Below, one piece after another: positions 45,393 through 62,252 of a stretch of 64,000 nucleotides of DNA (its first letter is position 1; each line of letters opens with the position of its first letter). The notes beneath the pieces were generated by a model, which made no database searches, was not told the DNA's origin, and saw only the letters and a program-made list of their open reading frames with translations. The position numbers and the translations under genes are program-made. The stretch covers positions 1,116,001-1,180,000 of the forward strand of contig NZ_BAAAXG010000026.1 of assembly GCF_039535475.1 (NCBI RefSeq). Reading direction: 5' to 3'. Origin of the DNA: Streptomyces showdoensis (GTDB lineage: Bacteria; Actinomycetota; Actinomycetes; Streptomycetales; Streptomycetaceae).

Positions 45393-45483
45393 CCGGCGCC
45401 GCCCGCGCCGACACCGGCCGCCGGGGCTCGCCCACCACGCCCGGGCCCCGGCCCCCGAACTCGCTACACCGAGGAGCAGTTTC

Positions 45484-47754
45484 ATGACAACGACCACTCC
45501 GGGCACCGCCCAGGTCGAGCTCGCCATCGGCGGCATGACCTGCGCCTCGTGCGCGGCCCGTATCGAGAAGAAGCTCAACCGCATGGACGGGGTCGAGGCC
45601 ACCGTCAACTACGCGACCGAGAAGGCGAAGGTCACCTTCGACGCCGACATCGACGTCGCCGCCCTGATCGCCACCGTCGAGGCCACCGGCTACAGCGCCA
45701 AGGAGCCCGAGCCCGAGCGCCCGGCCGCCTCCGGCGGCGGCCCCGAGGGCCCCACGGACGACGAGATCGCCGACGCCGAGCTCCGCCCGCTCAAGCAGCG
45801 CCTGATCACCGCCGTCGCCCTCGCCGTGCCCACCATCGCGATGGCGATGGTCCCGGCGCTCCAGATCGAGTACTGGCAGTGGCTGAGCCTCACGCTCACC
45901 GCGCCGGTCGTCGTCTACGCCGCCTGGCCCTTCCACAAGGCCGCCTGGACCAACGCCAAGCACGGCGCCGCGACCATGGACACGCTGATCTCGGTCGGCA
46001 CCATCGCCGCGTTCCTGTGGTCCCTGTGGGCGCTGTTCTTCGGCACCGCCGGCACCCCGGGCATGACCCACGCCTTCGAGTTCACCATCGCCCGCACCGA
46101 CGGCGCCGGGAACATCTACCTGGAGGCCGCGGCCGGCGTCACCGCCTTCATCCTGGCCGGGCGCTACTTCGAGGCCCGCTCGAAGCGCAAGGCCGGCGCC
46201 GCGCTCAAGGCGCTGATGCAGCTGGGCGCGAAGGAGGTGACGGTCCTCAAGAACGGGCAGGAGGTCACCGTACCGACCGCCGAACTCCAGGTCGGCGACC
46301 GCTTCCTGGTCCGCCCCGGCGAGAAGATCGCCACCGACGGCACCGTCGTCGAGGGCTCCTCCGCCGTCGACGCCTCCATGCTCACCGGCGAGTCCGTGCC
46401 GGTCGAGGTCTCGGTCGGCGACTCCGTCACCGGCGCCACCCTCAACGCCGGCGGCCGCCTGGTCGTCGAGGCCACCCGGGTCGGCTCCGACACCCAGCTG
46501 GCCCGCATGGCCAAGCTGGTCGAGGACGCCCAGAACGGCAAGGCCGCCGCCCAGCGCCTGGCCGACAAGATCTCCGCCGTCTTCGTGCCGATCGTCATCG
46601 CGCTCGCCCTCGGCACCCTCGGCTTCTGGCTCGGCACCGGACAGGGCCTCACCGCCGCGTTCACCGCCGCCGTCGCCGTGCTGATCATCGCCTGCCCCTG
46701 CGCCCTCGGCCTGGCCACCCCGACCGCCCTCATGGTCGGCACCGGCCGCGGCGCCCAGCTCGGCATCCTGATCAAGGGCCCCGAGGTCCTGGAGACCACC
46801 CGCAAGGTCGACACCATCGTCCTGGACAAGACCGGCACCGTCACCACCGGCCGGATGACCCTCATCAAGGTCCACACCGCCGCCGGCACCGACGAGACCG
46901 ACGTGCTGCGCCTCGCGGGCGCCCTGGAGCACTCCTCCGAGCACCCGATCGCCCAGGCCGTCGCCACCGGCGCCGCCGCCCGCGTCGGCACCCTGCCCAC
47001 CCCCGAGGACTTCGCCAACATCCCCGGACTCGGCGTCCAGGGCGTCGTCGACGGCCACGCGGTCCTGGTCGGCCGCGAGAAGCTGCTCGAAGAGTGGGCG
47101 ATGGAGCTCACCCCGTCCCTCAAGGCCGCCAAGGACGCGGCCGAGAAGGCCGGCAAGACCGCCATCGCGGTCGCCTGGGACGGCGAGGCCCGCGCGGTCC
47201 TGGAGGTCGCCGACGCGGTCAAGGAGACCAGCGCCGAGGCCATCCGCCGGCTCAAGGCCCTGGGCCTGACCCCGATCCTGCTCACCGGCGACAACAAGGC
47301 GGTCGCCGAGGCCGTCGCCGCCGAGGTCGGCATCGGCGAGGTGATCGCCGAGGTCATGCCGCAGGACAAGGTCGACGTCGTCAAGCGCCTCCAGGCCGAG
47401 GGCCGTTCGGTCGCCATGGTCGGCGACGGCGTCAACGACGCCGCCGCGCTCGCCCAGGCCGACCTCGGCCTCGCGATGGGCACCGGCACCGACGCCGCCA
47501 TCGAGGCCGGCGACCTGACCCTGGTACGGGGCGACCTGCGGGCGGCGGCGGACGCGATCCGGCTCTCCCGCAAGACCCTCGGCACCATCCGCTCGAACCT
47601 CTTCTGGGCCTTCGCCTACAACGTGGCCGCCCTGCCGCTCGCCGCGGCCGGACTGCTCAACCCGATGATCGCCGGAGCGGCGATGGCCTTCTCCTCGGTC
47701 TTCGTGGTCGGCAACAGCCTGCGCCTGCGTGGTTTCCAAGCCGCCGACAAGTAG
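45484..47754 (+). CDS. copA: Copper(I)-exporting P1B-type ATPase CopA
   Basis: 756 residues: one N-terminal metal domain (GGMTCASC, Cys 20 and 23), the actuator TGES motif, the membrane CPC motif (Cys 404 and 406) that defines the copper/silver class, the DKTGT phosphorylation site (Asp 448), the HP motif (SEHP) and TGDN plus [10 protein letters not shown]. It pumps cytoplasmic copper(I) out. GAGGAG lies upstream of the ATG. Follows copZ after 91 bp and precedes csoR by 31 bp. Confidence 0.95.
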
Positions 47755-47785
47755 CCGTCGGCCGTGATGTGACGAGGAGGCCGCC

Positions 47786-48067
47786 GTGGCCGGTTACGGA
47801 CAGCACAAGGAAGACATCATCAGACGCCTGAGGCGCATCGAGGGCCAGGTCCGGGGGGTGCAGCGGATGGTGGACGAGGACGTCTACTGCATCGACGTCC
47901 TCACCCAGGTCTCCGCCATCAACGCGGCGCTCCAGTCCTGCGCGGTGGCCCTCCTGGACGAGCACCTCAGCTGCTGCGTCACGGAGGCCATCGAGGCCGG
48001 CGGGGATCAGGCCAAAGTGAAGGTGGGCGAGGCCTCGAAGGCGATCGCCCGCCTGATCCGGACCTGA
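47786..48067 (+). CDS. csoR: Copper-sensing repressor CsoR
   Basis: 93 residues, all-helical. The copper ligands Cys 35, His 60 and Cys 64 are present with the spacing of Mycobacterium CsoR (36, 61, 65), in YCIDVLTQV and DEHLSCCV. It binds copper(I), then leaves the 17-bp boxes listed here. GTG start with GAGGAGG upstream; last gene of the copper operon, so autoregulated through the copZ promoter. Confidence 0.94.
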   Translation: MAGYGQHKEDIIRRLRRIEGQVRGVQRMVDEDVYCIDVLTQVSAINAALQSCAVALLDEHLSCCVTEAIEAGGDQAKVKVGEASKAIARLIRT

Positions 48068-48099
48068 CGCAGTCGGCGTCGCGAGAAGTAAAGAGAGAG

Positions 48100-48255
48100 T
48101 CAACCGCCCTTGTGCGAAGGGCAGCCAGCGGACAGCCGGACGCTCAGCCGAAGACACAGGCCGAGCACCTGACGCAGGAGCACCAGCTCCGCCGAACCGG
48201 GGACTTCGAGGCCGCAGACCTTCGCGCAGGGGCGGTTCCGTATCGGAGTAGTCAT
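48100..48255 (-). CDS. Possible 51-aa Cys-containing small protein
   Basis: A short frame opposite to its neighbours, starting 10 nt from CsoR operator 4 and containing four cysteines (RPCAKVC near residues 10-14, Cys 34 and 45). A GGCGGG sequence touches the ATG. It is too short to trust on codon use alone; it may only be the leader region of the BlaI gene. The remaining 270-bp gap after csoR shows no other feature. Confidence 0.25.
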   Translation of the reverse strand: MTTPIRNRPCAKVCGLEVPGSAELVLLRQVLGLCLRLSVRLSAGCPSHKGG

Positions 48256-48264
48256 CCCGCCACT

Positions 48265-48281
48265 GTACCCCTGGGGGGTAT
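48265..48281. promoter_or_regulatory. CsoR operator 4, ahead of blaI-like gene
   Basis: GTACCCCTGGGGGGTAT differs from operator 1 only at the first base. It ends 57 bp before the BlaI-family start. It implies that the regulator-protease pair is copper-induced. Confidence 0.75.
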
Positions 48282-48338
48282 ACCTGTGCGGGTGAGGCGG
48301 CCCGTACGATGAGCCGCCCGTGACGGGAGGGGATGCAC

Positions 48339-48713
48339 GTGCGCCGGCTGGGAGAGCTGGAGGCCGAGATCATGGACCGGCTGTGGGCCTGGCAGCGGCC
48401 CGCGACGGTCCGCGAGATCGTCGAGGACATCAACCTGGGACGCCGGGTCGCCTACACCACGGTGATGACGGTCGCCGACATACTCCACCGCAAGGGCTGG
48501 CTGCGCCGCGAGAAATCGGGCCGGGCCTGGCTGTACGAGCCCGTCCGCAGCCGCGAGGAGTACACCGCGGGCCTCATGCAGGACGCGCTCGGCGACAGCC
48601 AGGACCGGCCCGCCGCGCTGCTGCGCTTCGTGGAGACCATCTCGGACGAGGACATGGCCGCCCTCGACGCGGCGCTGCGCACCGCCCGGCGGGCCCACGG
48701 CGAGGACCGATGA
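48339..48713 (+). CDS. BlaI/MecI/CopY-family repressor
   Basis: 124 residues of winged-helix fold: RRLGELEAEIMDRLWAW, then RPATVREIVEDIN and AYTTVMTVADILHRKGWLRREK. The family includes penicillinase repressors cut by a membrane protease, and CopY copper repressors; the CopY cysteine hook (CxCxxxxCxC) is absent here. GTG 48339 is preferred because GGGAGGGG lies 6 nt upstream, whereas the ATG at 48333 has none. Overlaps the next gene by 4 bp. Confidence 0.88.
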   Translation: MRRLGELEAEIMDRLWAWQRPATVREIVEDINLGRRVAYTTVMTVADILHRKGWLRREKSGRAWLYEPVRSREEYTAGLMQDALGDSQDRPAALLRFVETISDEDMAALDAALRTARRAHGEDR

Positions 48714-49621
48714 ACCACCACACCCTCCCCCCGCTCGGCCTCGCCCTCTGTACGGGCTTCCTGGTGCCCTGGCTGCTGGTGCGGGCCCGCTGGGCCCAGC
48801 AGGTCCCCCGGCTCGCGCTCGCCGTGTGGGCCGCGAGCGGGGCGTTCTTCGCCGGCAGCGTGGCCCTGCTCGCCGCCCAGCTGCTCCTGCCCAGCCGGAC
48901 CGGACACCGGCTGAGCGACGCCCTCTTCGCCCTCCGGCTCCCGCCCGCCGAACGCCTGCTCCACCTCGACGGACGCGAGTACGTGGCCGCCGCGATCGCC
49001 CTCGGCCTGGTCGCCGGCCCGCTCGCCGGATTCGCCCGCGCCCTGCTGCGGGCCCGCCGGCTGCGGCGGCGGCACGCGGAGACGCTGCGGCTGGTGGGAC
49101 GGTACGACCCCGAGCTGCGGGCGACCGTCCTGGAACACGAACACCCCGCCGTCTACTGCCTGCCCGGCCGCTCGCGCCGGGTGGTGGTCTCCTCGGGCGC
49201 CCTACGCACCCTGACGCCCCCTCAGCTCGACGCCGCCCTCGCGCACGAGCGGGCGCACATCTCCGGGCGGCACCACATCCTGGTCGCGGCCACCGAGTCC
49301 TTCGCCACCGCCTTCCCGCACCTGCCGCTCGCCCGGCACGGCGCCACGGCGGTGCCCCTGCTGCTCGAAATGGCCGCCGACGACCGGGCGTTGCGCCGCT
49401 GCTCGCGCGACGCGCTGGCCACCGCGCTGTACGCGCTGGCCTCCGGAAAGGCACCGCGCGAGGCGTTCGCCGCGGGCGGCCCCTCGGCGGCGCTGCGCAT
49501 GCGTCGCATCCTCACCCCGCACAGCGCCGGACACCCGGTGCTGCGCGGGCTGCTCACGATCGCGACGGCCGGACTCGCCACGGCGCCTCTGATCATCGCC
49601 TGCTGCTCGTTCCCCAATTAA
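48710..49621 (+). CDS. M56-family membrane metalloprotease (BlaR1/HtpX-like)
   Basis: 303 residues. Membrane helices at the N terminus and about 90-115 and 280-298 flank a cytoplasmic protease domain with the zinc motif HERAH (179-183). There is no penicillin-binding sensor domain as in BlaR1. By analogy it would cleave the adjacent BlaI-type repressor on a membrane signal. ATGA overlap with the repressor stop shows coupling. Confidence 0.87.
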   Translation: MNHHTLPPLGLALCTGFLVPWLLVRARWAQQVPRLALAVWAASGAFFAGSVALLAAQLLLPSRTGHRLSDALFALRLPPAERLLHLDGREYVAAAIALGLVAGPLAGFARALLRARRLRRRHAETLRLVGRYDPELRATVLEHEHPAVYCLPGRSRRVVVSSGALRTLTPPQLDAALAHERAHISGRHHILVAATESFATAFPHLPLARHGATAVPLLLEMAADDRALRRCSRDALATALYALASGKAPREAFAAGGPSAALRMRRILTPHSAGHPVLRGLLTIATAGLATAPLIIACCSFPN

Positions 49622-50416: not shown

Positions 50417-51349
50417 ATGCACACACCGAGCGGCACTTCCCTGCCCGCCGTGCCCGCAGCGCTCGCGCCGGTCCTGCCGTCCCGATACGGCCTCCCCGGC
50501 ACCCGGGCCGGGACGCTCGACGCGCTCGGCCCCCTCGAACCGCCCGCCCCCGGCGCGGGCATCCGGCTCAAGTCCGACACCCTTCCCGGACTCGAATCGG
50601 TCTCCCCCGGCGACGAGGACTCGGTCTGGCTCTACGACGCGCTCCTCGGCCCGCACAGCGCCGACATCGTCCGGTACCTCAGCCTCGCCCGCTCCACCGG
50701 CGGCCCCGTCCTCGATCTCGGCTCCGGCGCCGGACGGCTCGCCGTCCCCTTCGCCCGGCACGGCTTCGCCGTGGAGGCCGTGGACCGGGACGGCCCCGCC
50801 CTGGAACGCCTCGAGTCCTGGGCCCGGCGGATCGGCCCGCAGGTCGCCGAGCTCGTCGTGACCACCCGGGCCGACCTCACCGAGCTGCGGCTCGACGGCG
50901 ACTACCGGCTGGCCCTGCTGGCCGGCGCGATGGTCTCCGCCGTGCCGCCCCGCGCACGGCCCCGGCTGCTGCGCGAGATCGCCTCGCACCTGGGGGCGGG
51001 CGGAGCGCTCGCGCTCGACTACACCGCGCACCAGGTGCCGGGGCTGATCGCGGAGCCGCAGCGGACCTGGGCCTTCCAGGTCCCGCGCTTCGACGGGATC
51101 GACGAGTGGGTGGTGGCCCGCCAGGTCTTCGACCTGCGCTCGATGAGCGAGCGGATCACCTACTACTCGGCGCGGACCGGCAAGCTCTCCACCGAGCGGG
51201 TGGTGCTGACCACCGACAAGTGGATCGTGGACGGCGCGCACCTGGCGGCCGAGCTGCACTCGGCAGGTCTGCACATCGAGGGCCGGCGGCGGCACCGGAT
51301 CGACGAGCGGACCGAGAGCGTCCTGCTGGTCTGCCGGCCCGACGACTGA
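50417..51349 (+). CDS. Class I SAM-dependent methyltransferase
   Basis: 310 residues. Motif I is VLDLGSGAGRLAVPFARHG, followed by the acidic residue strand VEAVDRD. An 85-residue N-terminal part precedes it. It resembles methyltransferases found in natural-product loci, but the acceptor is not evident. GGAGGA lies directly upstream of the ATG. Confidence 0.82.
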   Translation: MHTPSGTSLPAVPAALAPVLPSRYGLPGTRAGTLDALGPLEPPAPGAGIRLKSDTLPGLESVSPGDEDSVWLYDALLGPHSADIVRYLSLARSTGGPVLDLGSGAGRLAVPFARHGFAVEAVDRDGPALERLESWARRIGPQVAELVVTTRADLTELRLDGDYRLALLAGAMVSAVPPRARPRLLREIASHLGAGGALALDYTAHQVPGLIAEPQRTWAFQVPRFDGIDEWVVARQVFDLRSMSERITYYSARTGKLSTERVVLTTDKWIVDGAHLAAELHSAGLHIEGRRRHRIDERTESVLLVCRPDD

Positions 51350-51457: not shown

Positions 51458-51898
51458 ATGGCAGTCGTGGAAGAGCTGACGGGCCGCGAGGCGGTGATCC
51501 AGCGCCTGCGCGACGTCGGCCTGCGGGTCACCGGACCGCGCCTGGAGGTGCTCACCGTGCTCGCCGCCGGCGGCCATCTCGACGTCGAGGCGATCACCGC
51601 GACCGCCCGTGAGCGGCTCGGCACCCTGACCAGCCAGGCCGTGTACGAGATGCTGCGGCACTTCCAGGAGACCGGCCTGGTCAGCAAGTTCGACCGGCCC
51701 GGCCTCCCGGCCGTCTTCGAGGTGTCCGGCCCGCCGCACCAGCACGCCCTGTGCGTCGAGTGCGGCCGGGTGGAGAACGTGACCGCGACCGCCCCCGCCC
51801 CGCCGCGCGGCAGCCTGCCGCAGTGGCGGGTGAGCGATGCCGAGGTGGTCTTCAAGGGCCTTTGCCCCGACTGCCACGAAGAGCACCCTTCGCGCTGA
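51458..51898 (+). CDS. Fur-family metalloregulator
   Basis: 146 residues: winged helix (LRVTGPRLEVLTVLAAGGHLDVEAI, SQAVYEMLRHFQETGLV) and a dimer domain with the HQH motif (PPHQHALCVECG). The structural zinc pairs are CxxC at 99/102 and 136/139. It belongs with CatR/FurA or PerR-like sensors rather than clear Zur; the metal cannot be decided. TACGAT at 51411-51416 is a likely -10. No catalase gene adjoins it. Confidence 0.87.
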   Translation: MAVVEELTGREAVIQRLRDVGLRVTGPRLEVLTVLAAGGHLDVEAITATARERLGTLTSQAVYEMLRHFQETGLVSKFDRPGLPAVFEVSGPPHQHALCVECGRVENVTATAPAPPRGSLPQWRVSDAEVVFKGLCPDCHEEHPSR

Positions 51899-51995
51899 AA
51901 GCGCTTGAACACCGTGCGTCGCGTTCGAATCTGTGGCAGGGTCGAGCGGGGCGTTTCAACGGGATCCGCGCGATCCGAGGGGAGTCTGCTGCGCC

Positions 51996-53030
51996 GTGTC
52001 CAAAAACGCCGCCGGTGCGCGTGCGGGAAGCGAACAGGCCCTCACCCTCTACCAGGCGCTTCGCGCCACCCCGGCCGACTCCTTCGAGGTCGTCGCCGCC
52101 CGCCTGGAACTGTCCGGGACCGAGCGTGAGCGCTGCCGCGACGAGCTGATCGCCCTCGGCCTGCTCGACCACGGGCACATCACCCCCGAGCGCCCCGCCC
52201 CCGTCGTCGTCGCCCCCGACGTCGCCCTGCTCCACCTGCTCCAGCACGAGCGGGACCGGCTGGAGAACCGGCTGGCCGAGACCAGCCGCGCCCACACCAC
52301 CCTGGAGACCCTCGCAGGACCGTTCCTCCGGGCCGGCCTCGAACCCGGCTCCGAGGTCGAGGTGGAGATCGTCGACGACCCCGCCCAGGTCCACCGCGAA
52401 CTGGCCGACCTGACGGAATCCGTCCGGGACTCGGTCTACTCGATGCTGACCGGAGCGGTGCGGCGCGAGGAGATGGCGCTGGAGCTGGAGTGGGACCGCC
52501 GCCGGGTGGCGCGCGGGGTGCGGGTGCACGCCATGTACAGCCAACGGGTCGGTGCCGTACCGGAGATGGTGCAGCACCTCGCGGCGCGCACCGCGCTCGG
52601 CGTCGAGGTCCGGCTCTCCCCCGTCGTCCCCATGAACATGGTCCTCGCCGACGACAACTTCGCGCTGCTGCCCACCGATCCGCACGATCCCGAATCGGCC
52701 GCCATCCTGGCCCGCGGCCCGGGCCTGGTCCGCTCCTACCGGGCGCTGTACGGGTACTGCTGGCACGCCGCCACCCCGTACGGCCACGAGGAGCCGGCCG
52801 AGCACGGCGGCGACGGGCTGAACGAGCAGCAGCGGGCCGCGCTGCGGATGCTCGCCTCCGGGATCAAGGACGAGCAGGTCGCCCGCAACCTCGGCGTCTC
52901 GCTGCGCACGGTGAGCCGGCTGATCTCCGAGGTGATGCAGGAGCTGGACGCCGCCAGCCGCTTCGAGGCGGGCGTGAAGGCCGCCCGGATGGGACTCCTG
53001 GACGGCGAGACGCACGGGCGCGGCGCGTAG
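51996..53030 (+). CDS. LuxR-type transcriptional regulator with TrmB-like N terminus
   Basis: 344 residues. N-terminal winged-helix-like part (TLYQALRATPADSFEVVAARL), a coiled linker (LLQHERDRLENRLAET), a central domain, and a C-terminal LuxR-type HTH (NEQQRAALRMLASGIKDEQV, RNLGVSLRTVSRLI). Paralogous along its whole length to the next gene, indicating tandem duplication. GAGGGGAG lies 11 nt before the GTG. Confidence 0.83.
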   Translation: MSKNAAGARAGSEQALTLYQALRATPADSFEVVAARLELSGTERERCRDELIALGLLDHGHITPERPAPVVVAPDVALLHLLQHERDRLENRLAETSRAHTTLETLAGPFLRAGLEPGSEVEVEIVDDPAQVHRELADLTESVRDSVYSMLTGAVRREEMALELEWDRRRVARGVRVHAMYSQRVGAVPEMVQHLAARTALGVEVRLSPVVPMNMVLADDNFALLPTDPHDPESAAILARGPGLVRSYRALYGYCWHAATPYGHEEPAEHGGDGLNEQQRAALRMLASGIKDEQVARNLGVSLRTVSRLISEVMQELDAASRFEAGVKAARMGLLDGETHGRGA

Positions 53031-53093: not shown

Positions 53094-54149
53094 ATGGTCA
53101 CGACGGGCGGCGGCACAGGGGGCCGGCCGGCGACCGGTCGTTTGGTGACCCTCTATCAGGAGCTCCGCCGGCGGGGGGCGTCGAGCTTCACCGAGACCGC
53201 GGGCGCGTTAGGCATCGCCCCCGAGGAGTTCGAGCGATGTCGGGCCGAACTGATCGCCCTGGGGCTGATCGTGCCCACCGGCACCACCCACGCCACCGTC
53301 GCCGACGTGCGCAACGCCGAGTGGCGGCCGGACGCCGACACCGTGGCCTCGGTGGCCCCGGAGATCGCGCTGCTGCGCCTGCTGGACCGGGAGCGGGCCC
53401 GGCTGAGGGAGCACCTGGCCGAGGCGGACCGGGCGTTCAGCACCCTGGAGACCCTGGCCGGCACGTTCCTGCGGGCGAGCGCGCTGGCGGGCTCCGAGGT
53501 CGAGGTGGAGGCGCTGACGGACTACCGCAGGATCCAGCAGACGCTGGAGGACATCACCGACGTCATCCAGGAGAGTTCGGCCTCCATGCACCCGGGCGGC
53601 CCGAGCCGCCAGGCGCAGGCCAGGACCCTGGACCGCGACCGCCGCCAGCTGGACAACGGGGTGCGGGTCCGCGCCATCTACTCACGCGCCCACGCCGACC
53701 TGCCGGACGTCGCCGAACTGCTGCGGATGCGCATCGAGATGGGCGTGGAGATCAAGGTGGCCCGGCAGGTGCCGATGAACATGGTGATCGCCGACCAGCA
53801 GTACGCGCTGCTGCCGATCCGCCCCGAGGACGGGCGCGAGGGCGCCATCCTGGCCCGCGGCTCGGCCCTCGTCCGCTCCTACCTGGGCCTCTACGAGCAC
53901 TGCTGGCACACGGCCGCCCCCTACGGCGACGAGACCTCCGTCGAGCGCGGGGGCGACGGCCTCTCGGAGCAGCAGCGGGCCGCCCTGGAGATGCTGGCGA
54001 CCGGCATGAAGGACGAGAAGATCGCCCGGAACCTCGGGGTATCGCTGCGCACGGTGAGCCGCATGCTCTCGGAACTCATGCAGGAATTGGGGGCGTCGAG
54101 CCGCTTCGAGGCGGGCGTCCGCGCGGTTCGCCTGGGCTGGCTGGACTGA
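53094..54149 (+). CDS. LuxR-type transcriptional regulator, paralogue, with TTA codon
   Basis: 351 residues with the same layout: winged helix-like start (LYQELRRRGASSFTETAGAL), central domain (VPMNMVIADQQYALLPI) and LuxR HTH (SEQQRAALEMLATGMKDEKI, RNLGVSLRTVSRML). Codon 39 (53208-53210) is TTA, the rare leucine codon that Streptomyces reads only with the bldA tRNA, so its translation is probably tied to development. 64 bp after the first paralogue. Confidence 0.85.
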   Translation: MVTTGGGTGGRPATGRLVTLYQELRRRGASSFTETAGALGIAPEEFERCRAELIALGLIVPTGTTHATVADVRNAEWRPDADTVASVAPEIALLRLLDRERARLREHLAEADRAFSTLETLAGTFLRASALAGSEVEVEALTDYRRIQQTLEDITDVIQESSASMHPGGPSRQAQARTLDRDRRQLDNGVRVRAIYSRAHADLPDVAELLRMRIEMGVEIKVARQVPMNMVIADQQYALLPIRPEDGREGAILARGSALVRSYLGLYEHCWHTAAPYGDETSVERGGDGLSEQQRAALEMLATGMKDEKIARNLGVSLRTVSRMLSELMQELGASSRFEAGVRAVRLGWLD

Positions 54150-54653: not shown

Positions 54654-55970
54654 CTAGACTTGAGCTACGGCCTTCTCGTTCCTCCAGGAGAGAGGGGCCG
54701 TCGGGGCAGGGGCGTGCCGCCGCCCTTGCCCCACCCGGTCCGCCCGGCCCAGCGCGGCCGCCCGGGCGTCCTCGTAGACGTCGATCGTCCGCGCGGCGGA
54801 GGTGCGCCAGCTCATCCCCTGCGCGTGCCGGACCGCCGCCTCCCCCATCGACACCCGCGCCTGCGGGTGCGTCGCGAGCCAGCGCAGCCGCCGGGCGTAC
54901 TCCACCGGGTCGTGCCCCCGGACCAGCATCCCCGACACCCCGTCCCACACCGCCGTCGGCAGCCCGCCCACCGCCGCGGCGAGCACCGGCGTCCCGCAGG
55001 CCTGCGCCTCCAGCGCCACCAGCCCGAAGGACTCGCTGCGCGAGGGCACCACGAGCACGTCCGCCGCCCGGTACCACTCGGCGAGCCGATCCTGCGGTAC
55101 GGGAGGACAGGCCTGGAGCACGTCCGCGACCCCCAGCTCGGCCGCCAGCCGCCCCATCGAGCCCTCCCGGCCCGCCCCCGAGTGCCCGCCCACCACCGGG
55201 ACCAGCAGCCGCGGGCGCAGCTCCGGCGCCATCCGCAGCAGCTCCGCGACCGCCCGCACCAGGACGTCGGGCCCCTTCAGCGGCTGGATGCGCCCCGCGT
55301 ACAGCGGGATGAAGGCGTCGGCCGGCAGCCCGAGCCGGGCCCGGGCCGCCGCCCGCCCGGCCCCCGGCCCGAAGGTGCGCAGGTCCACGCCCGGCCGCAC
55401 CACCTCGGTGCGCGGCGCCGCCGCCCCGTACAGGGAGCGCAGCGCCTCCGCCTCGTCGGCGGTGTTGGCGATCAGCCGGTCGGCGTCCCCCACCACCTGG
55501 CGCTCGCCGCGGATCCGCAGCTCGGGCTCGGGGGTGTCGCCCTCGGCGAGGTGGGCGTTCTTGACCAGGGCCAGGGTGTGCGCGGTGTGCACCAGCGGTA
55601 TGCCCCAGCCGAACGAGGCGATCCGCCCCGCCTGCCCGGACAGCCAGTAGTGCGAGTGGACCAGGTCGTAGCGGCGCTTCTGCTTGAGCAGGGCCAGCGA
55701 GAAGGGGACGACCAGGTCCGGCATGGCCTCCTTGGGCAGCGGCCGGCGCGGTCCCGCGTGCAGGTGGCGGACCCGGACGCCGGGCGCGAGGTCCTCGATG
55801 CCGGGCCGGCCCTCGCCGCGGCAGCGGGTGAACAGGTCCACCTCCACGCCCTGTTCGGCGAGGGCCCGGGAGAGTTCGACCATGTAGACGTTCATGCCGC
55901 CGGCGTCCCCGGTTCCGGGCTGGTGGAGCGGGGAGGTGTGGACGCTGAGCATGGCGACGCGCAGGGACAC
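54654..55970 (-). CDS. GT4-family glycosyltransferase, MshA-like
   Basis: 438 residues, GT-B fold. The N-terminal region (MLSVHTSPLHQPG, then DAGGMNVYMVELSRALAEQG, YDLVHSHYWLSGQAG) and the nucleotide-sugar site (YAGRIQPLKGPD, SRSESFGLVALEAQACGTP with the EX7E motif) closely follow MshA, which adds GlcNAc from UDP-GlcNAc to inositol 3-phosphate in mycothiol synthesis. A second MshA is expected elsewhere for true mycothiol, so this is probably a paralogue with a new acceptor. GTG start with GGAG upstream. A 182-bp AT-rich gap to the next gene upstream may hold its own promoter. Confidence 0.83.
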   Translation of the reverse strand: MSLRVAMLSVHTSPLHQPGTGDAGGMNVYMVELSRALAEQGVEVDLFTRCRGEGRPGIEDLAPGVRVRHLHAGPRRPLPKEAMPDLVVPFSLALLKQKRRYDLVHSHYWLSGQAGRIASFGWGIPLVHTAHTLALVKNAHLAEGDTPEPELRIRGERQVVGDADRLIANTADEAEALRSLYGAAAPRTEVVRPGVDLRTFGPGAGRAAARARLGLPADAFIPLYAGRIQPLKGPDVLVRAVAELLRMAPELRPRLLVPVVGGHSGAGREGSMGRLAAELGVADVLQACPPVPQDRLAEWYRAADVLVVPSRSESFGLVALEAQACGTPVLAAAVGGLPTAVWDGVSGMLVRGHDPVEYARRLRWLATHPQARVSMGEAAVRHAQGMSWRTSAARTIDVYEDARAAALGRADRVGQGRRHAPAPTAPLSWRNEKAVAQV

Positions 55971-56152
55971 GTGGGGCTCCTGTGGGGAGGGCCACGTGGT
56001 CCCTGCGCGTCGCGCGCACGGTCACGCGGCGGGGATGGGGACTGCGTTGCTCGTGTTTCTCTCTTGGCGCTGTGCGGTGGCACCGGCTCGCCGATGCACT
56101 GAATTACTTAGCTGATTAGTAGTAGAGGGCGGGGAAATCCGGCGCGAGTTCG

Positions 56153-57718
56153 TCAGAACCCGTAGACCGGACCGGAGGGCGGCGCGAGCCGCGTCCCCGG
56201 CAGCGGGGCGATCAGCGCCGACCAGTCGACCGGGCGGCCCGGCGCCACCTGGAGCGCCGACGCCAGCCGGTCCGCGCCCTCGGGCATCACCGGCCGGGAC
56301 CACGCCGACAGCGCCGAGGCCACCGCCAACTGGGCGGCGAGCGAGGGCAGGTGGCGGCAGGAGTTGCTGGGCCGGCAGCGCTCGTGCGCGTTGACGTAGC
56401 CGAAGTCGGCGACCGAGCGGACCATCTCGTCGAGCACCGCCACCGCGCGGCGCGGGTCGAAGGCGTCGGGACCGTAGGCCTCGCGCAGGTCGTCCACGCC
56501 CCGGTGCAGCCGCCGCTCCAGGATCTCCCAGCCGGTGCCGCCGGGCATCGCCTGCGGGGCGAGCCCGTCGCACTCCTCGCGGACGGACGCGAACAGCCGG
56601 GCCAGCCAGCTGTTCCAGTTCTCGTCGAGCTCCATGCGGGCGGCGGCGAGCCGGTCCCGCTGGAAGACGGTCCGGCGGCCGGTCGGGCGGGCCTGCAGGA
56701 CATGGCGGCGCAGGGTGTCGGAGCCGTACTCGGTGAGCAGGTCCAGCGCCCACACGTTCCCCTCGCGGACGCCCTCCTCCACCACGTACGACTCGTTGAC
56801 GTTGAACTCCTGCGGCAGCTTCACGTCCTGCGCGAGCAGCAGCACCGGCAGCAGCACCGCGTGGCAGAAGGCGTGCCCGAAGCCGCAGAAGTGGATGGTG
56901 CGGCGGGGCAGCGGGCCCTTGGTGTCGTAGCCGAACAGGTGCATCGCGGCGGCCTCGAAGCAGCCGTCGATGCGGTGGTCCGGGAAGCCCTCCACCGGCA
57001 CCGGCAGGCCCCAGTCGGCGGGGTGGCCGACCGCGATGTCCGGCAGCCCGTCCTCCACCAGCGACTCGCACAGCGCCGCGAGCCGCGGCGGCAGGCCGGC
57101 CGCCGCCCAGTAGTCGGCGAGGGTCTCGCGGAACGGCTCCAGGGGCACGTAGAGCCGCCGGCAGCGCTTGGCGAGCGCCGGGGTGTCGCACAGCGAGCAG
57201 CGCGGCGAGATGAGGTCCCCGCCGTCGTTGGGGCGCGCGCACTCGTGGCACATGCCGCCGTCGCTGGTGGCCCCGCAGTGCGGGCAGCTGCCGGTGACGT
57301 GCGCCCCGTACAGCCAGCGCTCGCAGGGCTCGCAGTACGGCAGCAGGCGGGTGCGCGGGGCGATGACGCCCTGCGCGTACAGGCGGCTGAAGAGCTCCTG
57401 CACCCAGCGCGCGTAGCCGCGGTCCTTGCGGGGCCGGACGATGTGGTCGAACTCGACACCGGAGCGCAGCCAGTCCGCGGTGATCGCCGCGCGGTAGCCC
57501 TCGGCGACCTCCTCGGGCTTGCGGTTGTGCCGCAGCGCTCTGACCTCCACCGAGCTGGCGTGGTCGGCGGTACCGGTGGTGAACCGCACCGGTTCGCCCT
57601 CGGCCCGCAGGTAGCGGGTGAGGACGTCGGCCGCGACGTACGGACCGGCGAGGTGTCCGATGTGCAGTTCGCCATGGGTGGCCGGAGGGGTCGCGGTGAT
57701 CCAGACAGGGGTGCTCAT
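56153..57718 (-). CDS. Methionyl-tRNA-synthetase-like class I ligase
   Basis: 521 residues. The catalytic HIGH motif is intact (HGELHIGHLAG, residues 19-22), and two zinc knuckles are present (CEPC...CPHC and CHEC...CSLC). The expected KMSKS loop is replaced (FNVNESYVVEEGV), and the C-terminal anticodon-binding part is short. This suggests an enzyme that adenylates an amino acid for a small-molecule acceptor, as MshC (a CysRS relative) does in mycothiol synthesis, rather than a housekeeping MetRS. GGAGGTCCC precedes the ATG. Lies 46 bp after the SDR gene. Confidence 0.8.
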   Translation of the reverse strand: MSTPVWITATPPATHGELHIGHLAGPYVAADVLTRYLRAEGEPVRFTTGTADHASSVEVRALRHNRKPEEVAEGYRAAITADWLRSGVEFDHIVRPRKDRGYARWVQELFSRLYAQGVIAPRTRLLPYCEPCERWLYGAHVTGSCPHCGATSDGGMCHECARPNDGGDLISPRCSLCDTPALAKRCRRLYVPLEPFRETLADYWAAAGLPPRLAALCESLVEDGLPDIAVGHPADWGLPVPVEGFPDHRIDGCFEAAAMHLFGYDTKGPLPRRTIHFCGFGHAFCHAVLLPVLLLAQDVKLPQEFNVNESYVVEEGVREGNVWALDLLTEYGSDTLRRHVLQARPTGRRTVFQRDRLAAARMELDENWNSWLARLFASVREECDGLAPQAMPGGTGWEILERRLHRGVDDLREAYGPDAFDPRRAVAVLDEMVRSVADFGYVNAHERCRPSNSCRHLPSLAAQLAVASALSAWSRPVMPEGADRLASALQVAPGRPVDWSALIAPLPGTRLAPPSGPVYGF

Positions 57719-57764
57719 GGGACCTCCTTGACGCTGTGCTGCGGTGAGCTCGGGGGAGCCCGGG

Positions 57765-58511
57765 TCAGCGGGGTTCGAAGTGGAAGGAACGGATGAAGCA
57801 GTCACGGGGCTGCTCGACGGCGTACACGATGCATTCGAAGAGCGCCTGCGTGGTCAGCTTCTCGTCGGGCGCTATTCCGTCCGGATTCAGGCCGTTCCAT
57901 TCGGCGAATCGCGGGTCGGAGGTCGAGAAGTCCGGCGGGTAGAGCGAGAACACCCGGACGCCGGAGGGCCGCAGCCGCCGGGAGAGGATGTCGGCGAATC
58001 CCGCCTGCGCGCTCTTCGCCGTCCAGAACGCCTCGTGCGCGGCGCCCGCGGTCGCGGCCGAGGCGCCCTCGGCGTCCCGCACGGCGACCATGTTGACGAT
58101 GTCGGGGCGCAGCGAGCCGCGCAGCAGCGGCAGGAAGTGCTTCACCATCAGGACGGTGCCGCCGGCCGTCGACTCGATCGTCTCGACGATCTCGTCGTCG
58201 CTGGCCGCCTCCAGGTCCATGCCGTCCAGCCAGCGGGCCCCGTTGTTCACCAGCAGGTCGACCCGGTCGGTGCGCTCGCCGACGCGGGCGGCGAACTCCC
58301 GGATCTCGGCCGGGCGGCTCAGGTCGCAGCCGAAGGCGTGGATGCGGTCGCGGGCCGAGCCCATGACCTCGGCGCGGGTGCGCTCGGCGGCCTCGACGGT
58401 GCGGGCCGACACGTAGACCTCGGCGCCGAGATGGGCGAATCCGACGGCGAGCGCGCGGCCGAAATAGCGGGACGCCCCGGTCACGACGACACGCAGATTC
58501 TCGAATTTCAT
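57765..58511 (-). CDS. Short-chain dehydrogenase/reductase
   Basis: 248 residues with the nucleotide motif VVVTGASRYFGRALA and NNGA. The catalytic YxxxK is altered to FWTAKSAQAG (Phe in place of Tyr), so ordinary SDR chemistry is in doubt. ATG 58511 is chosen with GGGGAGAG upstream. Repeats upstream suggest its own promoter. Confidence 0.8.
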   Translation of the reverse strand: MKFENLRVVVTGASRYFGRALAVGFAHLGAEVYVSARTVEAAERTRAEVMGSARDRIHAFGCDLSRPAEIREFAARVGERTDRVDLLVNNGARWLDGMDLEAASDDEIVETIESTAGGTVLMVKHFLPLLRGSLRPDIVNMVAVRDAEGASAATAGAAHEAFWTAKSAQAGFADILSRRLRPSGVRVFSLYPPDFSTSDPRFAEWNGLNPDGIAPDEKLTTQALFECIVYAVEQPRDCFIRSFHFEPR

Positions 58512-58527
58512 GTGTGTCTGCTCTCCC

Positions 58528-58570
58528 CACGGATACGCCACGGATACGCACGGACCACGGCACGGATACG
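58528..58570. promoter_or_regulatory. Three CACGGATACG direct repeats at 11- and 22-bp spacing
   Basis: Copies at 58528-58537, 58539-58548 and 58561-58570, with 11 and 22 bp between starts. Direct heptamers spaced in multiples of 11 bp upstream of a start are how SARP-family activators bind in antibiotic clusters. No SARP gene is seen in this window. Confidence 0.5.
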
Positions 58571-58657
58571 GCTCCGCCATGGCGTGCCACCGATTGCCGG
58601 TCGTATTTCAGCGTGACAGAGGTTCGCGGGTGACCGCCCGTCCCCAGGGGTGCGCAT

Positions 58658-59557
58658 TCACGCCGTTGCGTGGATACGCCAGGGGAGTTCGAGCCGGTCC
58701 AGGACCCGGGCCCGCTTGTGGTGCACGGTGACCCGGTCGGGCCCGGTGGAGACGGTGACGACCCCGCCGGGCGTCCTGACCGTACGGCCCGGGCCGCCGG
58801 GCACGACGGTCCCGTCGAGCGCGCCGGCGGCGGCGAGGGCGGCGGCGCCGGTGAGCGCCAGGCGCGGATGCCAGCCGCCGACGGTGAGGGCCCGCACGAA
58901 GAGCCCTTCGGGGGTCGGGCGGAAGGCGGCGATCTTGGGCAGCGGCGCGTGCGGGGCGTACCCGAGCAGACGGGCCGCCTCGCCCCGCAGCCGCTCCAGC
59001 CCCTCCTCCGTCCCCCCGTCCGCCAGGTGGCGGGCGTCGACGAAGACGTACGGGTTCCCGTACCGCACGAGGGAGACGGGCACGCCGAGCAGGGTGTCGA
59101 CGGGGCGGCCGGTGGGGAGGGTGCCGGGGGCGGTGGGGGGCCGCAGGAAGTGCAGCGCGTGCCGTTCGCCGTCGCCGTCCTCCCGCTCGACGCGCACGGT
59201 GTCCCCGGTCGTCACGGCCCGCACGGTGACGTCGTCCGGCCGGCCCTCGGCGACCACGCAGGCGAGCAGCGAATGCCCGCACCCGGTGCGGAAGTCGAAC
59301 CGGCCGTCCGGGAGGGCCTGCACGAACCGGTAGTCGAGCCCGCCCCGGCGTCCGGCCGAAGGCCCGTACAGCGCGATCTTGTTGAGCTCCGCGTACGGGG
59401 TGCCCGCGAGCGCCCGGCGCACTCCCGCCAGCTCGTCGCCGAGCGCGAGGGCGCCCGGGGGGAGCTGGTCGAGCCGGACGACGAGGGTGGGCCCGGGGGC
59501 GTCCTCGGCCCGGACGACGGTGACGCGGACGGGCGGCTCCGGGACGTCAGGCCGCAC
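58658..59557 (-). CDS. PrpF/DapF-fold isomerase-like protein
   Basis: 299 residues. The two-fold barrel layout fits PrpF (methylaconitate isomerase) and DapF relatives: NKIALYGPS, FDFRTGCGHSLLACVVAEG with a candidate catalytic Cys, and VRYGNPYVFVDA in the second half, where the second catalytic Cys is not obvious. It overlaps the upstream asparagine-synthetase-like gene by 11 bp, so they are co-translated. The substrate is unknown. Confidence 0.7.
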   Translation of the reverse strand: MRPDVPEPPVRVTVVRAEDAPGPTLVVRLDQLPPGALALGDELAGVRRALAGTPYAELNKIALYGPSAGRRGGLDYRFVQALPDGRFDFRTGCGHSLLACVVAEGRPDDVTVRAVTTGDTVRVEREDGDGERHALHFLRPPTAPGTLPTGRPVDTLLGVPVSLVRYGNPYVFVDARHLADGGTEEGLERLRGEAARLLGYAPHAPLPKIAAFRPTPEGLFVRALTVGGWHPRLALTGAAALAAAGALDGTVVPGGPGRTVRTPGGVVTVSTGPDRVTVHHKRARVLDRLELPWRIHATA

Positions 59558-61352
59558 AGCCGGCCGGGATTCGCATGCCCTGGACGACCTCCGTCCACAG
59601 CTCGTGCACGGCCAGCCCCCAAAGCGCCATCGCCGCGTGCTGGTTGGGCCGTTGCAGATGCCGCGCGAGCAGCTTCTGGACGCGGTCGGCGCGGACCTTG
59701 CCGCCGAGGACCAGGCGGGCCGGGGACAGGAGTTCGCGGACGGTGTCGAGGAGCGGCCCGCCGGGGGCGAGCATGGCGGCGACGGGCAGCGTGAACGGCT
59801 GCTTGGGCCGGTTGAGGACCGCCGCGGGCAGCAGCTCCGCCCCCGCCTCGTACAGCGCGGGCTTCCCGTGCCGCGCGGCGGCCGGCAGGGAGCGGGCGTG
59901 CGTCACGACCCCGGGCTGGCAGAACGGCATGCGCGCCTCCACCGCCCACGCCATCGACAGGTGGTCGACCCGCCGCAGGTGGTACGCGGGCAGCCGCCAC
60001 CGCGTCTCGAAGGCGCTGAGCGCGGTCACCCGGTCGCCCCCGGCCGCGTCGGCCGAGCGCAGCTCCTGCTCGATGCGGTCGGCGGCCGAGCCGTGGTCGG
60101 CGATGAAGGCGGCGTACGAGGAGGTGTACAGGTGCTCCCGCAGCAGCCGCGGCGCGGCCGAGAGCGCGTCGGCGTAGGCGCCGGCCCAGTCGATGCCGGC
60201 CGGCGCGGTGAGCGCGGCCCGCATCCGGTCGTACCCGCCGAAGAGCTCGTCGGCGCCGTCCCCGGTGAGCGCCACGGTGAAGCCGTTCTCGCGCACGGCC
60301 CGGAACAGCGCGTACGTGGAGAGCGCGATCGGGTCGGCGTTGGGCTGCCCGAGGTGGCGGACGGTGCGGGTGAGCAGCGAGGGGATCTCGTCGGGATCGA
60401 CGACGACCTCGTGGTGCACGGTCCGGGCCCGCCGGGCGACGGAACGGGCGTACGCGGCCTCGGAGTCGGGCCACTTGCCCCGGTAGGCGAGGTGGAAGGT
60501 GTGCAGCGGCGGCGCGTCCGTCTCGCGCGCGTGCTCGGCGGCGAGCGCGGTGACCAGCCCCGAGTCGAGCCCGCCGCTGGTGACCGCGCAGACGGGCACG
60601 TCCGCGGTGGCGAGCCGGCGCACCTCGTGCCGCAGCACGTCCTGGGTGTCGCCGAGCGGCCGCGCCGCGTGCGGGGCACGGCGGCGCACGACGGGCGCGC
60701 AGCCGGGCCGGACGAGTGCGGTGGCCCCGGGCGGCAGCACGTCGATGCCGTCGAGGGCGGTGCGCGCGGAGAAGGAGGTGCGGGTGGCGAGGACGGTGTC
60801 GAGGGCGTCCTCGCGCGGGGCGATCCGCACGCCCTCGAAGGCGAGCAGGGCGGGGATCTCGGAGGCGAAGCGGGTGGAGCCGTCGGTCGGGTCGTGGTGC
60901 AGGTGGATCGGCTTCATGCCCATGTCGTCGACGGCGAGCACGAGTTGGGCGCGGGCGGGGCGCAGGTCGAGGATCGCGACGGCGAACATGCCGTCGAGGT
61001 GTTCGGCGAAGGCGGGCCCGTACTCGGCGTACAGCGCGGGCAGCAGGGTGCCGTCGCAGCGGTCGGGGAAGCGGTGGCCGCGCGCGGCCAGCCGGCGGCG
61101 CAGCTCGGTGTGGTTGTAGATCTCGCCGTTGAGCACGGCGAGGATGCCGGGCAGGTGGGGCAGCCGGTAGGGCTGCCGCCCGCCGCAGGGGTCGGTGACG
61201 GCGAGCCGGTCGCAGCCGAGCGACCAGCCGGGGCCGCTGAGCACGTGGTGCTCGTCGGGGCCGCCGTGCCGCTGCCGGGCCGAGACCGCCGCGAGCTCGG
61301 CGGGGTCGGGACGCGCCGCACCCGCGGCGATGGTGCCGAGGATCCTGCACAT
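59547..61352 (-). CDS. Asparagine-synthetase-like amidotransferase
   Basis: 601 residues. Cys 2 (MCRILG), RHGGPDE, RLAVTD and NGEIYNH show an intact class II glutaminase domain. The second domain has the ATP pyrophosphatase loop SGGLDSGL and GDGADELFGGYDRMR. In secondary-metabolite loci such enzymes make amides or lactams on small molecules. GGAGG lies 10 nt before the ATG. First gene of the five-gene minus-strand run. Confidence 0.87.
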   Translation of the reverse strand: MCRILGTIAAGAARPDPAELAAVSARQRHGGPDEHHVLSGPGWSLGCDRLAVTDPCGGRQPYRLPHLPGILAVLNGEIYNHTELRRRLAARGHRFPDRCDGTLLPALYAEYGPAFAEHLDGMFAVAILDLRPARAQLVLAVDDMGMKPIHLHHDPTDGSTRFASEIPALLAFEGVRIAPREDALDTVLATRTSFSARTALDGIDVLPPGATALVRPGCAPVVRRRAPHAARPLGDTQDVLRHEVRRLATADVPVCAVTSGGLDSGLVTALAAEHARETDAPPLHTFHLAYRGKWPDSEAAYARSVARRARTVHHEVVVDPDEIPSLLTRTVRHLGQPNADPIALSTYALFRAVRENGFTVALTGDGADELFGGYDRMRAALTAPAGIDWAGAYADALSAAPRLLREHLYTSSYAAFIADHGSAADRIEQELRSADAAGGDRVTALSAFETRWRLPAYHLRRVDHLSMAWAVEARMPFCQPGVVTHARSLPAAARHGKPALYEAGAELLPAAVLNRPKQPFTLPVAAMLAPGGPLLDTVRELLSPARLVLGGKVRADRVQKLLARHLQRPNQHAAMALWGLAVHELWTEVVQGMRIPAGCAA

Positions 61353-61508
61353 TGCCGGTCGCCTCCGGATCTCTCTACCAGTCTCTATCCACGTGGAACA
61401 CCCAATGATTTGAATCTACCAAGCTTTTGAATGGCGCGTAAGTGCCATGTCCAGTTCACGCCACGGCTTGGCCTTGCGACGTCCCCGCCGCACCAAGAGG
61501 CTGGCCCC
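61353..61508. promoter_or_regulatory. AT-rich divergent promoter region with TTTGAAT repeats
   Basis: The 156-bp gap between the asparagine-synthetase-like and LmbE-like genes is much richer in AT than its surroundings. TTTGAAT occurs at 61409-61415 and again at 61426-61432 on the same strand, 17 bp apart. A regulator of both operons could bind here. Confidence 0.45.
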
Positions 61509-62252
61509 ATGGAGGACTTCGCGACGACCGACCCGACCGTCCGCAGCGCACCGGAATCACTGCTGGTGGTGGCGGCGCACCCGGACGACATCGAGTTCTG
61601 CGTCAGCGGCACCGTCATGCAGTGGATCGAACGCGGCACCCGCGTCACCTACTGCATCGTCACCGACGGCGGCGCGGGCGGTTACGACGAGGCGCTCCCC
61701 CGCCAGGCCATGGCGGACCTGCGCCGCGCGGAGCAGGTCCACTCCGCGAAACTCAGCGGCGTCGCCGACGTCCGCTTCCTCGGCTACCCCGACAGCTTCG
61801 TCGAGGCCTCCGTCGACCTGCGCCGCGACCTGTGCCGGGTCATCCGCGAGGTGCGCCCGCAGCGCGCCATCATCCCGTCCCCCGAGATCAACTGGGCCCG
61901 CGTGGCCGACCTCCACCCCGACCACCGCGCCGTCGGCGACGCCTGTCTGCGCGCGATATACCCCGAGGCCCGCAACCCCTTCGCCCACCCGCAGCTCCTC
62001 AAGCAGGAGGGCCTGGAGCCGTGGACGGTCCACGAGCTGTGGCTGATGACGGGGCCGACCCCGAACCAGTACGTCGACGTCACCCCCGTCTTCGACCGCA
62101 AGGTCGAGGCCCTGCGCATCCACACCTCCCAGACCGCCCACTTCGACGACCTGGCCGGGCTGCTGCGCGACTGGCTCAGCGAGCACGCGACGGCGGGCGG
62201 GCTGCCGGCGGGGCGGATGGCGGAGGCGTTCCAGATCGTGCACATCGACTGA
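61509..62252 (+). CDS. LmbE/PIG-L-family deacetylase, MshB-like
   Basis: 247 residues. The zinc motif AHPDD (His 24, Asp 26-27) and the later HPDH pair identify the LmbE/PIG-L family, which removes N-acetyl groups from GlcNAc conjugates (MshB in mycothiol, PIG-L in GPI anchors). Divergent from the ligase and glycosyltransferase operon, so it could deacetylate the glycosyltransferase product before amino-acid attachment. Confidence 0.85.
   Translation: MEDFATTDPTVRSAPESLLVVAAHPDDIEFCVSGTVMQWIERGTRVTYCIVTDGGAGGYDEALPRQAMADLRRAEQVHSAKLSGVADVRFLGYPDSFVEASVDLRRDLCRVIREVRPQRAIIPSPEINWARVADLHPDHRAVGDACLRAIYPEARNPFAHPQLLKQEGLEPWTVHELWLMTGPTPNQYVDVTPVFDRKVEALRIHTSQTAHFDDLAGLLRDWLSEHATAGGLPAGRMAEAFQIVHID

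Follow-up and report, generated by a model that had tools for sequence, protein, structure and literature searches.

The locus and its genes

A 64,000-nucleotide stretch of Streptomyces showdoensis DNA (contig NZ_BAAAXG010000026.1, positions 1,116,001 to 1,180,000; hereafter the window) carries a second MshA-like glycosyltransferase gene and a PIG-L family hydrolase gene beside a gene for a protein like methionyl-tRNA synthetase (MetRS), together with AsnB-like, PrpF-like and short-chain dehydrogenase/reductase (SDR) genes. A previous reading made from the sequence alone had named six folds here, and open reading frame calls and Pfam/NCBIfam profiles agree that all six genes lie within 54654-62252 (Table 1). 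The SDR and MetRS fold assignments stand, with the qualification that the SDR has no classical Tyr and mostly no Ser, and that the MetRS-like protein has no KMSKS-type motif. The AsnB and PrpF frames overlap by 11 bases and are followed on the minus strand by the SDR, MetRS and MshA genes. The PIG-L gene is divergent, 156 bases separating it from the AsnB start. Across the six genes, dN/dS lies between 0.00 and 0.48 in the pairs tested.

Table 1. Features of the locus and of its second arm. Window numbering, except for positions marked C26, which lie on contig C26 of the window genome; counts of loci refer to the 48 window-type loci described below.
Feature	Position	Strand	Basis and remarks
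PIG-L family metal hydrolase (deacetylase or amidase)	61509..62252	+	PF02585 1.4e-26; alternative start 61431
AsnB-like glutamine-dependent amidotransferase	59547..61352	-	PF00733, GATase_7; TIGR01536 295 bits, cut-off 267
PrpF-family isomerase-like protein	58658..59557	-	PF04303 2.2e-7; alignment; model and fold search
SDR-fold protein	57765..58511	-	PF00106; classical Tyr gone, Ser also gone in window copy
MetRS-like protein, hydrazine-synthetase lineage	56153..57718	-	PF09334 5.9e-51; HIGH kept, KMSKS-type loop lost
Second MshA-like GT4, GlcNAc-inositol-phosphate synthase type	54654..55970	-	TIGR03449 536 bits, cut-off 462.5
LuxR-type regulator 2	53094..54149	+	PF00196 5.5e-10
LuxR-type regulator 1	51933..53030	+	PF00196 1.8e-7
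Fur-family regulator, syntenic with locus	51458..51898	+	PF01475 6.9e-15; 39/48 loci
Methyltransferase, syntenic, pathway membership uncertain	50450..51349	+	PF13649; daptide_MTase 111 bits, below cut-off 175; 43/48 loci
MDMPI/DinB-type protein, arm B	C26:1202416-1203090		PF11716 25.1 bits, cut-off 24.2
SAHH, MTHFR, MetH, PfkB-type kinase, MetK, carrier-like protein, phosphopantetheinyl transferase (PPTase), aminoacyl:carrier ligase-like protein, in this order, arm B			Between MDMPI and AurF-type genes
AurF-type diiron oxygenase, arm B	C26:1212717-1213610		PF11583 119.9 bits, cut-off 29.6
Two methyltransferases, MaoC, Cys/Met-type pyridoxal phosphate (PLP) enzyme, arm B	to C26:1217581		After AurF; followed by a major facilitator superfamily (MFS) gene

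Lineage and motif loss of the MetRS-like protein

An AlphaFold model of the MetRS-like protein is that of a complete MetRS (pLDDT 90.5); in the 525-residue query, pLDDT drops under 50 at residues 319-324. Among solved structures the closest fold is 9l8v, the PyrN MetRS domain with glutamyl-sulfamoyl-adenosine (TMq 0.84, about 31% identity), and identity to the standalone sister proteins is about 48-54%. A 64-row tree was built as a quick IQ-TREE run with SH-aLRT support and a long canonical outgroup, leaving out 25 loci that were near-duplicates or short. In this tree the window clade of 37 rows (SH-aLRT 100) is nested among rows that carry a KFSTS motif and mostly come from loci with cupin and lysine N-hydroxylase genes. 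By tree and fold, the window protein descends from the hydrazine-synthetase MetRS of PyrN type.

The catalytic motifs have diverged from this ancestry. In the available text on PyrN, K458 is described as essential (PMC8664883). The Lys of the PyrN KFSTG motif is at chain position 336 of a 546-residue chain that ends at residue 668, and since 336+122=458 it was taken as K458. The equivalent KMSKS-type lysine is absent from the window protein in the alignment. Basal rows carry KLSTT (L095, L097) or RRFST (P0041), and the Streptomyces loci carry no motif of this kind. Conservation was counted over 46 clade rows, excluding L095, L097 and L105, with a 10-residue scan that skips the first 15 and last 20 residues. 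The KMSKS-type loop is the lowest-conserved stretch of that scan (0.61, against a protein mean of 0.85), HIGH is conserved at 0.95, and no lysine is invariant. The GxD aspartate of this fold is mostly Gly in this protein type, and the Trp of YVWFE is Cys. The MetRS-like genes are nonetheless under purifying selection, with dN/dS of 0.09-0.27 (and see the weighing of a dead-remnant origin below). Three members inside the window clade (L122, P0112 and P0119) have lost HIGH as well as KMSKS.

These results divide the claim that the locus encodes a MetRS-derived ligase. The MetRS type is borne out by tree and fold, whereas an ATP-dependent MetRS-type ligase becomes doubtful because the protein lacks the KMSKS-type lysine that PyrN requires; the loop that held it is also the least conserved. 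As far as the sequence can tell, the protein has most likely lost the ability to adenylate with ATP on its own.

Conservation of the locus across Streptomyces

We compared 79 related loci, taken from the best 80 of 118 relatives, and classed 48 as window-type by their MetRS. MshA is present in 44 of these, PIG-L in 41, AsnB, PrpF and SDR in 40 each, and a LuxR match in 46. Genes are missing from L054, L061 and L078 since contig ends cut the locus. PIG-L, MetRS and MshA are all that remain of the six genes in L075 and L077, and L089 is without PrpF and SDR. A different arrangement is seen in L066 (Streptomyces sp. adm13(2018), on a 33 kb contig), where MetRS, MshA and LuxR are present and other genes replace those for SDR, PrpF, AsnB and PIG-L.

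A second survey covered 392 evenly drawn Streptomyces genomes, with orthologues set by identity cut-offs. A MetRS match at 1e-60 occurs in 60 genomes, those below 65% identity not being counted as window-type; the window-type protein (at least 65%) is found in 31, plus a copy in two pieces in G224. The MshA paralogue (at least 66%) is carried by 29 genomes, all inside the MetRS set, and scores 50 bits above the next match. The PIG-L orthologue (at least 80%) occurs in 30, namely the 29 MshA-paralogue genomes and G224, so that all 29 of the former also have PIG-L and MetRS. Two genomes (G260 and G180) have the MetRS and neither the MshA paralogue nor the PIG-L orthologue. MshA, PIG-L and the aminoacyl-tRNA synthetase (aaRS)-like protein are thus the constant core of the locus. 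Co-conservation of the six-gene neighbourhood across Streptomyces, which the sequence-only reading had set as a check, is confirmed, both by the 40-44 of 48 loci that hold each partner gene and by the 29-31 of 392 genomes with MshA, PIG-L and MetRS. The G224 copy (S. diastatochromogenes ATCC 21481, locus L105) has several broken frames across MetRS, MshA and their neighbours, through decay or assembly error.

A second arm and a larger cluster

The six window genes form one arm (arm A) of a larger assembly. PIG-L relatives in G285, G265 and G310 (56-57%) and the DNA past PIG-L in L091 and L094 led to a second arm (arm B), which in the window genome lies 24-41 kb past PIG-L, beyond the window. 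Clear family matches were obtained in arm B for MetH, MTHFR, SAHH, MetK, AurF, MaoC, the PLP enzyme, PPTase and MFS (the last in the G009 copy), and the naming of the kinase as PfkB-type comes from the L094 relative alone. Both metK and sahH are present in two copies in the window genome. A sequence search of solved structures gave no match at 1e-5 for the AurF-type protein, so its typing rests on PF11583 and on Glu and His residues that are invariant across 10 members and would fit a diiron set without proving one.

The two arms are physically joined in several genomes. In G009 the methyltransferase, LuxR, Fur, arm A, arm B and MFS genes are contiguous over about 27 kb, and in G364 and G074 the arms meet at a PIG-L/MDMPI junction; they are about 16 kb apart in G270 and about 24 kb apart in the window genome. 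The AurF orthologue (at least 80%, next best match 66%) occurs in exactly the same 30 of 392 genomes as PIG-L, and MDMPI (at least 69%) in 26, all within those 30. The six genes are therefore one arm of a conserved cluster that comprises some 20 genes for enzymes, carrier and transport functions. The view of the six genes as a self-contained pathway to an aminosugar-amino-acid conjugate is not supported, given that the arm B AurF gene is found in exactly the 30 genomes with this PIG-L. We found no published description of the cluster in the open-licence PMC literature, where absence is weak evidence and where several of the searches were directed at the MetRS family or at PDB codes; it is apparently undescribed.

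Related gene sets occur elsewhere. L133 (8255-10420, from G285) encodes an MshC-like ligase that has KMSKS (TIGR03447 384 bits, cut-off 485) and adjoins a related PIG-L gene, the pair lying near AurF, aminoacyl:carrier ligase-like and Cys/Met PLP genes. L134 (G265) and L135 (G310) contain smaller related clusters, in which PIG-L is accompanied by AurF-like, aminoacyl:carrier ligase-like, carrier, MDMPI-like, MaoC-like and methyltransferase-like genes. Genes resembling transporter and redox genes lie further out, several of all these assignments being made by eye, and neither MshA nor MetRS was found within the 20 kb fetched. The MDMPI relative in L134, from a family whose name designates it as mycothiol-dependent, scores 84.2 bits with TIGR03083 (cut-off 50). 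Between the arms of the window genome lies a gene (L140, 692-4453) for a 1253-residue adenylation-carrier-thioesterase protein, 82% identical to one in L055. It was considered as a cluster member and rejected, as G009, G364 and G074 have no such gene between their arms. On the other side, a CopA-type ATPase gene (by Pfam) with CopZ-, CsoR-, BlaI- and M56 peptidase-like genes (by eye) flanks the locus at window positions 45102-49621, and the CopA-type family flanks 38 of the 48 loci. A copper connection is possible and is left as context only.

Relation to mycothiol biosynthesis

Canonical mycothiol genes lie outside the locus. An mshA at C26:1307727 scores 659.7 bits with TIGR03449 (536 bits for the window MshA), and mshC (684.5 bits), mshD (383.8 bits), mshB (408.8 bits) and mca (485.5 bits) are all elsewhere, as is a normal metRS. 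The single mshC match above cut-off in the genome is at C26:4079775, with none in the locus. Because the canonical set is elsewhere, the window genes are paralogues, and the claim that this is not the mycothiol locus is upheld. Like the MshA-MshB-MshC-MshD pathway, the locus has an MshA above the equivalog cut-off, adjoined by a PIG-L protein and an aaRS-derived protein. Unlike that pathway, its PIG-L is far below the MshB cut-off, its aaRS is of MetRS type instead of CysRS type and is without KMSKS, no MshD adjoins, and the canonical set is encoded elsewhere.

The window PIG-L scores below cut-off with BshB2 (87 bits), Mca (33.7, cut-off 277) and MshB (27.8, cut-off 224.35). Among solved sequences it comes closest to diacetylchitobiose deacetylases and LnmX, and HPDD and HPDH are present in 42 of 42 members. 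Aligned with 3c48 and 3c4q, the window MshA retains K78, Y110, T134 and R154 (C. glutamicum MshA numbering), presumably the inositol-phosphate contacts.

Comparison with hydrazine synthetases

A hydrazine synthetase function was the first considered, from the sister proteins, and was rejected for want of a cupin, an N-hydroxylase or a K458 equivalent. In the search by sister-locus protein cluster, a cupin was found in 0 of the 48 window-type loci, as was a lysine/ornithine N-hydroxylase of the sister families, and no cupin or lysine N-hydroxylase is among the arm B families identified. Among the sister loci, 21 of 31 carry a separate cupin that belongs to the same protein cluster and 25 of 31 the N-hydroxylase; L127, L130 and L132, for which a gene caller trained on high-GC genes made no MetRS call, are not positives in these counts. 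Compared with the cupin-MetRS hydrazine synthetases PyrN, Tri28 and Spb40, the window protein thus shares the MetRS lineage, fold and HIGH motif and differs in its cupin-free and hydroxylase-free neighbourhood, its lost K458 and its changed pocket motifs.

The comparison extends to other systems. In the portions available of Aravind et al. 2010, a cupin and a lysine N6-monooxygenase accompany MtRS paralogues without exception and adenylation residues are intact (PMC2922099). The window type resembles those predicted systems, being likewise a MetRS paralogue that sits among biosynthetic genes and is not part of translation, and breaks both the cupin/monooxygenase rule and the intact-adenylation rule as given there. 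The albofungin cluster, as far as its accessible description goes (PMC11705231), likewise combines a MetRS-like protein (Afn8) with an AsnB-like one (Afn14), but Afn8 is accompanied by the cupin Afn9 and the hydroxylase Afn18. Against the AsnB-like proteins of the hydrazine-type clusters fetched, a set that does not include Afn14, the window AsnB shows 31-33% identity. AsnB-like and SDR genes also occur in the hydrazine-synthetase-type clusters L104, L112, L113 and L102 (cupin, N-hydroxylase, standalone MetRS, amino acid oxidase-like), where the SDR is 52-53% identical to that of the window; over all such loci the range is 52-57%.

Active sites of the SDR, PrpF-like and AsnB-like proteins

In 49 SDR members audited for the Ser-Tyr-Lys triad, the printed variants have Phe where the Tyr would be; few of them have the Ser, and the Lys is kept. 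The sister SDRs of hydrazine-type clusters show the same Phe, and dN/dS is 0.00-0.10 despite the triad loss. The PrpF-like protein matches PF04303 weakly by sequence; its AlphaFold model (pLDDT 86) has YbhH, LigU, PrpF and methylitaconate isomerase as top folds, before DapF. Its Lys60 and Cys93 are invariant in 11 aligned members, and a catalytic role for this Lys and Cys is suggested by analogy with the listed LigU K66M and C100S entries. The AsnB-like protein keeps the glutaminase Cys2 and SGGLDS (window sequence and 45 members audited), and its nearest solved relative is the hydroxyamidotransferase 7ylz.

Proposed product and alternative explanations

The reading that we favour, at about an even chance, is that the product of the two-arm cluster is a small compound derived from an amino acid, N-oxygenated and methylated, and that mycothiol-type chemistry takes part in making it. 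The amino acid would be loaded on the carrier, N-oxygenated, and then methylated at the expense of a private S-adenosylmethionine (SAM) cycle, for which SAHH, MTHFR, MetH, the PfkB-type kinase and MetK would form a regeneration set if the kinase clears adenosine. The MDMPI-like protein may join or process a mycothiol (or glucosamine (GlcN)-inositol) adduct, whose amide or acetyl group PIG-L would cut, and the extra MshA may boost or divert GlcNAc-inositol. Lincosamide biosynthesis offers an analogy for the PLP enzyme, whose role may be to cleave a C-S bond. The mycothiol chemistry of that pathway is attributed to LmbV, LmbE and LmbF in the available parts of two reports (PMC4351081, PMC5518657). 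Going by the first of these (PMC4351081), the present cluster likewise unites a DinB/MDMPI-type protein, a PIG-L member, a PLP enzyme and a carrier protein; it differs in having a PLP enzyme of Cys/Met type and a PIG-L that is not Mca-like by cut-off, and it adds methyl-cycle genes and the AurF-type oxygenase. For the MetRS-like protein, motif loss leads us to favour binding of an aminoacyl group activated elsewhere (on a carrier, a tRNA or as an adenylate), or a role as partner subunit, over ATP-dependent ligation.

Several points weigh against this reading. The product chemistry is a proposal from gene content, and PIG-L falls short of the Mca cut-off. Some arm B names are weak: the class II aminoacyl:carrier ligase-like protein falls under its cut-offs (134.8 of 357; 20 of 29.3), the carrier-like protein is under its own, MDMPI is barely over (25.1 against 24.2 bits), and the arm B gene calls are those of this analysis. 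MDMPI relatives of lower similarity are widespread, with matches at E<=1e-40 in 157 of 392 genomes, and no MDMPI is listed for G238 in that survey; the MDMPI gene alone is therefore weak evidence. In the window's clade 16-24 kb separate the two arms, so that it is their co-occurrence which supports a joint function there. The neighbourhoods compared leave out genomes with a 47-53% MetRS (such as G103 and G280) and some in-clade rows represented by protein only. Lys300, conserved at 0.98, might partly stand in for KMSKS. Finally, L122 combines MetRS with a LuxR of this type and has neither MshA nor PIG-L, nor either arm, alongside, and in L081, L085 and L092 the MetRS, LuxR and the cluster's MFS remain; such arm-less loci fit a MetRS function independent of MshA and PIG-L. 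The latter three were considered as a minimal functional type and dropped from that role, since the MFS beside their MetRS is 90-96% identical to the G009 cluster MFS, and for the same reason they are read as deletion remnants. The L085/L092 MetRS pair has a dN/dS of 0.187, a value that cannot tell whether constraint outlasted the deletion.

Developed into a model, the sequence-only reading would put MshA, PIG-L and MetRS in the places of MshA, MshB and MshC, making a new aminoacyl-GlcN-inositol by ATP-dependent ligation that AsnB, PrpF and SDR then trim. The constant core speaks for it, with L075 and L077 reduced to just these three genes and L089 dispensing with PrpF and SDR, as do the retained HIGH motif and the residues of MshA presumed to contact inositol phosphate. 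The MshC-like ligase with KMSKS beside the G285 PIG-L indicates that the ligase slot can take another aaRS type, and leaves room for arm A to serve in mycothiol supply with a different kind of ligase. The loss of the KMSKS-type lysine from what is now the most variable stretch of the protein, the Gly at the GxD position and the Cys for the YVWFE Trp tell against ligation, and in none of the 392 genomes did the MshA paralogue or the PIG-L orthologue turn up without the AurF orthologue; we consider this model unlikely, if worth keeping in view. Loss of KMSKS, with HIGH and the fold kept, would suit a tRNA- or carrier-dependent acyltransferase. It would bind the aminoacyl-adenosine end of an aminoacyl-tRNA, or receive the aminoacyl group from the cluster's carrier protein, and act on GlcN-inositol or an N-hydroxy group; pyrophosphate chemistry and KMSKS would be dispensable by analogy with cyclodipeptide synthases, and the cluster does hold an aminoacyl:carrier ligase-like protein, a carrier-like protein and a PPTase. 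The accessible part of PMC2922099 presents cyclodipeptide synthases as derived class I domains that use aminoacyl-tRNA, but describes them as highly derived, whereas the protein here is a full MetRS. Clade members such as L122, P0112 and P0119 do without HIGH too, and we regard this proposal as rather doubtful. Its fullest form, an ATP-independent acyltransferase moving an aminoacyl group from carrier or tRNA to GlcN-inositol, in a cluster that builds its own mycothiol-like carrier for an undescribed N-oxygenated, methylated product class with a private SAM cycle, we hold to be quite improbable.

An N-N product would make more of the protein's hydrazine-synthetase ancestry and of an SDR shared at 52-57% with cupin/N-hydroxylase clusters. 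The AurF-type enzyme would supply an N-hydroxy or hydrazine-oxidising step and the MetRS would help to form an N-N or O-acyl intermediate on the way to a compound of azoxy or diazo type. In the text available from PMC13061610, the hydrazone-oxidising enzyme Dob3 has an AurF fold and is compared with AurF and VlmB. The sister-family cupin and lysine N-hydroxylase are missing from the 48 loci and from the identified arm B families, and with the K458 equivalent gone as well we think this very improbable. That the MetRS-like and SDR-like proteins are dead remnants is scarcely credible: both are without classical catalytic residues, and L081, L085 and L092 look like deletion remnants, but dN/dS of 0.09-0.27 (MetRS) and 0.00-0.10 (SDR) and a gene order kept across species in an operon-like arm argue the contrary.

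Significance

An apparently undescribed conserved cluster is thus present in about 8% (30/392) of the Streptomyces genomes sampled. It joins mycothiol-type enzymes, a second methyl-cycle set and carrier-based amino acid activation with an AurF-type oxygenase and a deviant MetRS, and so combines known kinds of system, aaRS-paralogue pathways and mycothiol-linked natural product clusters. As a target for genome mining, it would probably be missed by ordinary rules based on core enzymes. Its MetRS relative departs from both rules stated for the family in the available text of PMC2922099, that a cupin and N-hydroxylase are always present and that adenylation residues are intact. The natural series from KFSTS through KLSTT and RRFST to a loop that is gone offers a way into what a class I synthetase fold does without KMSKS.

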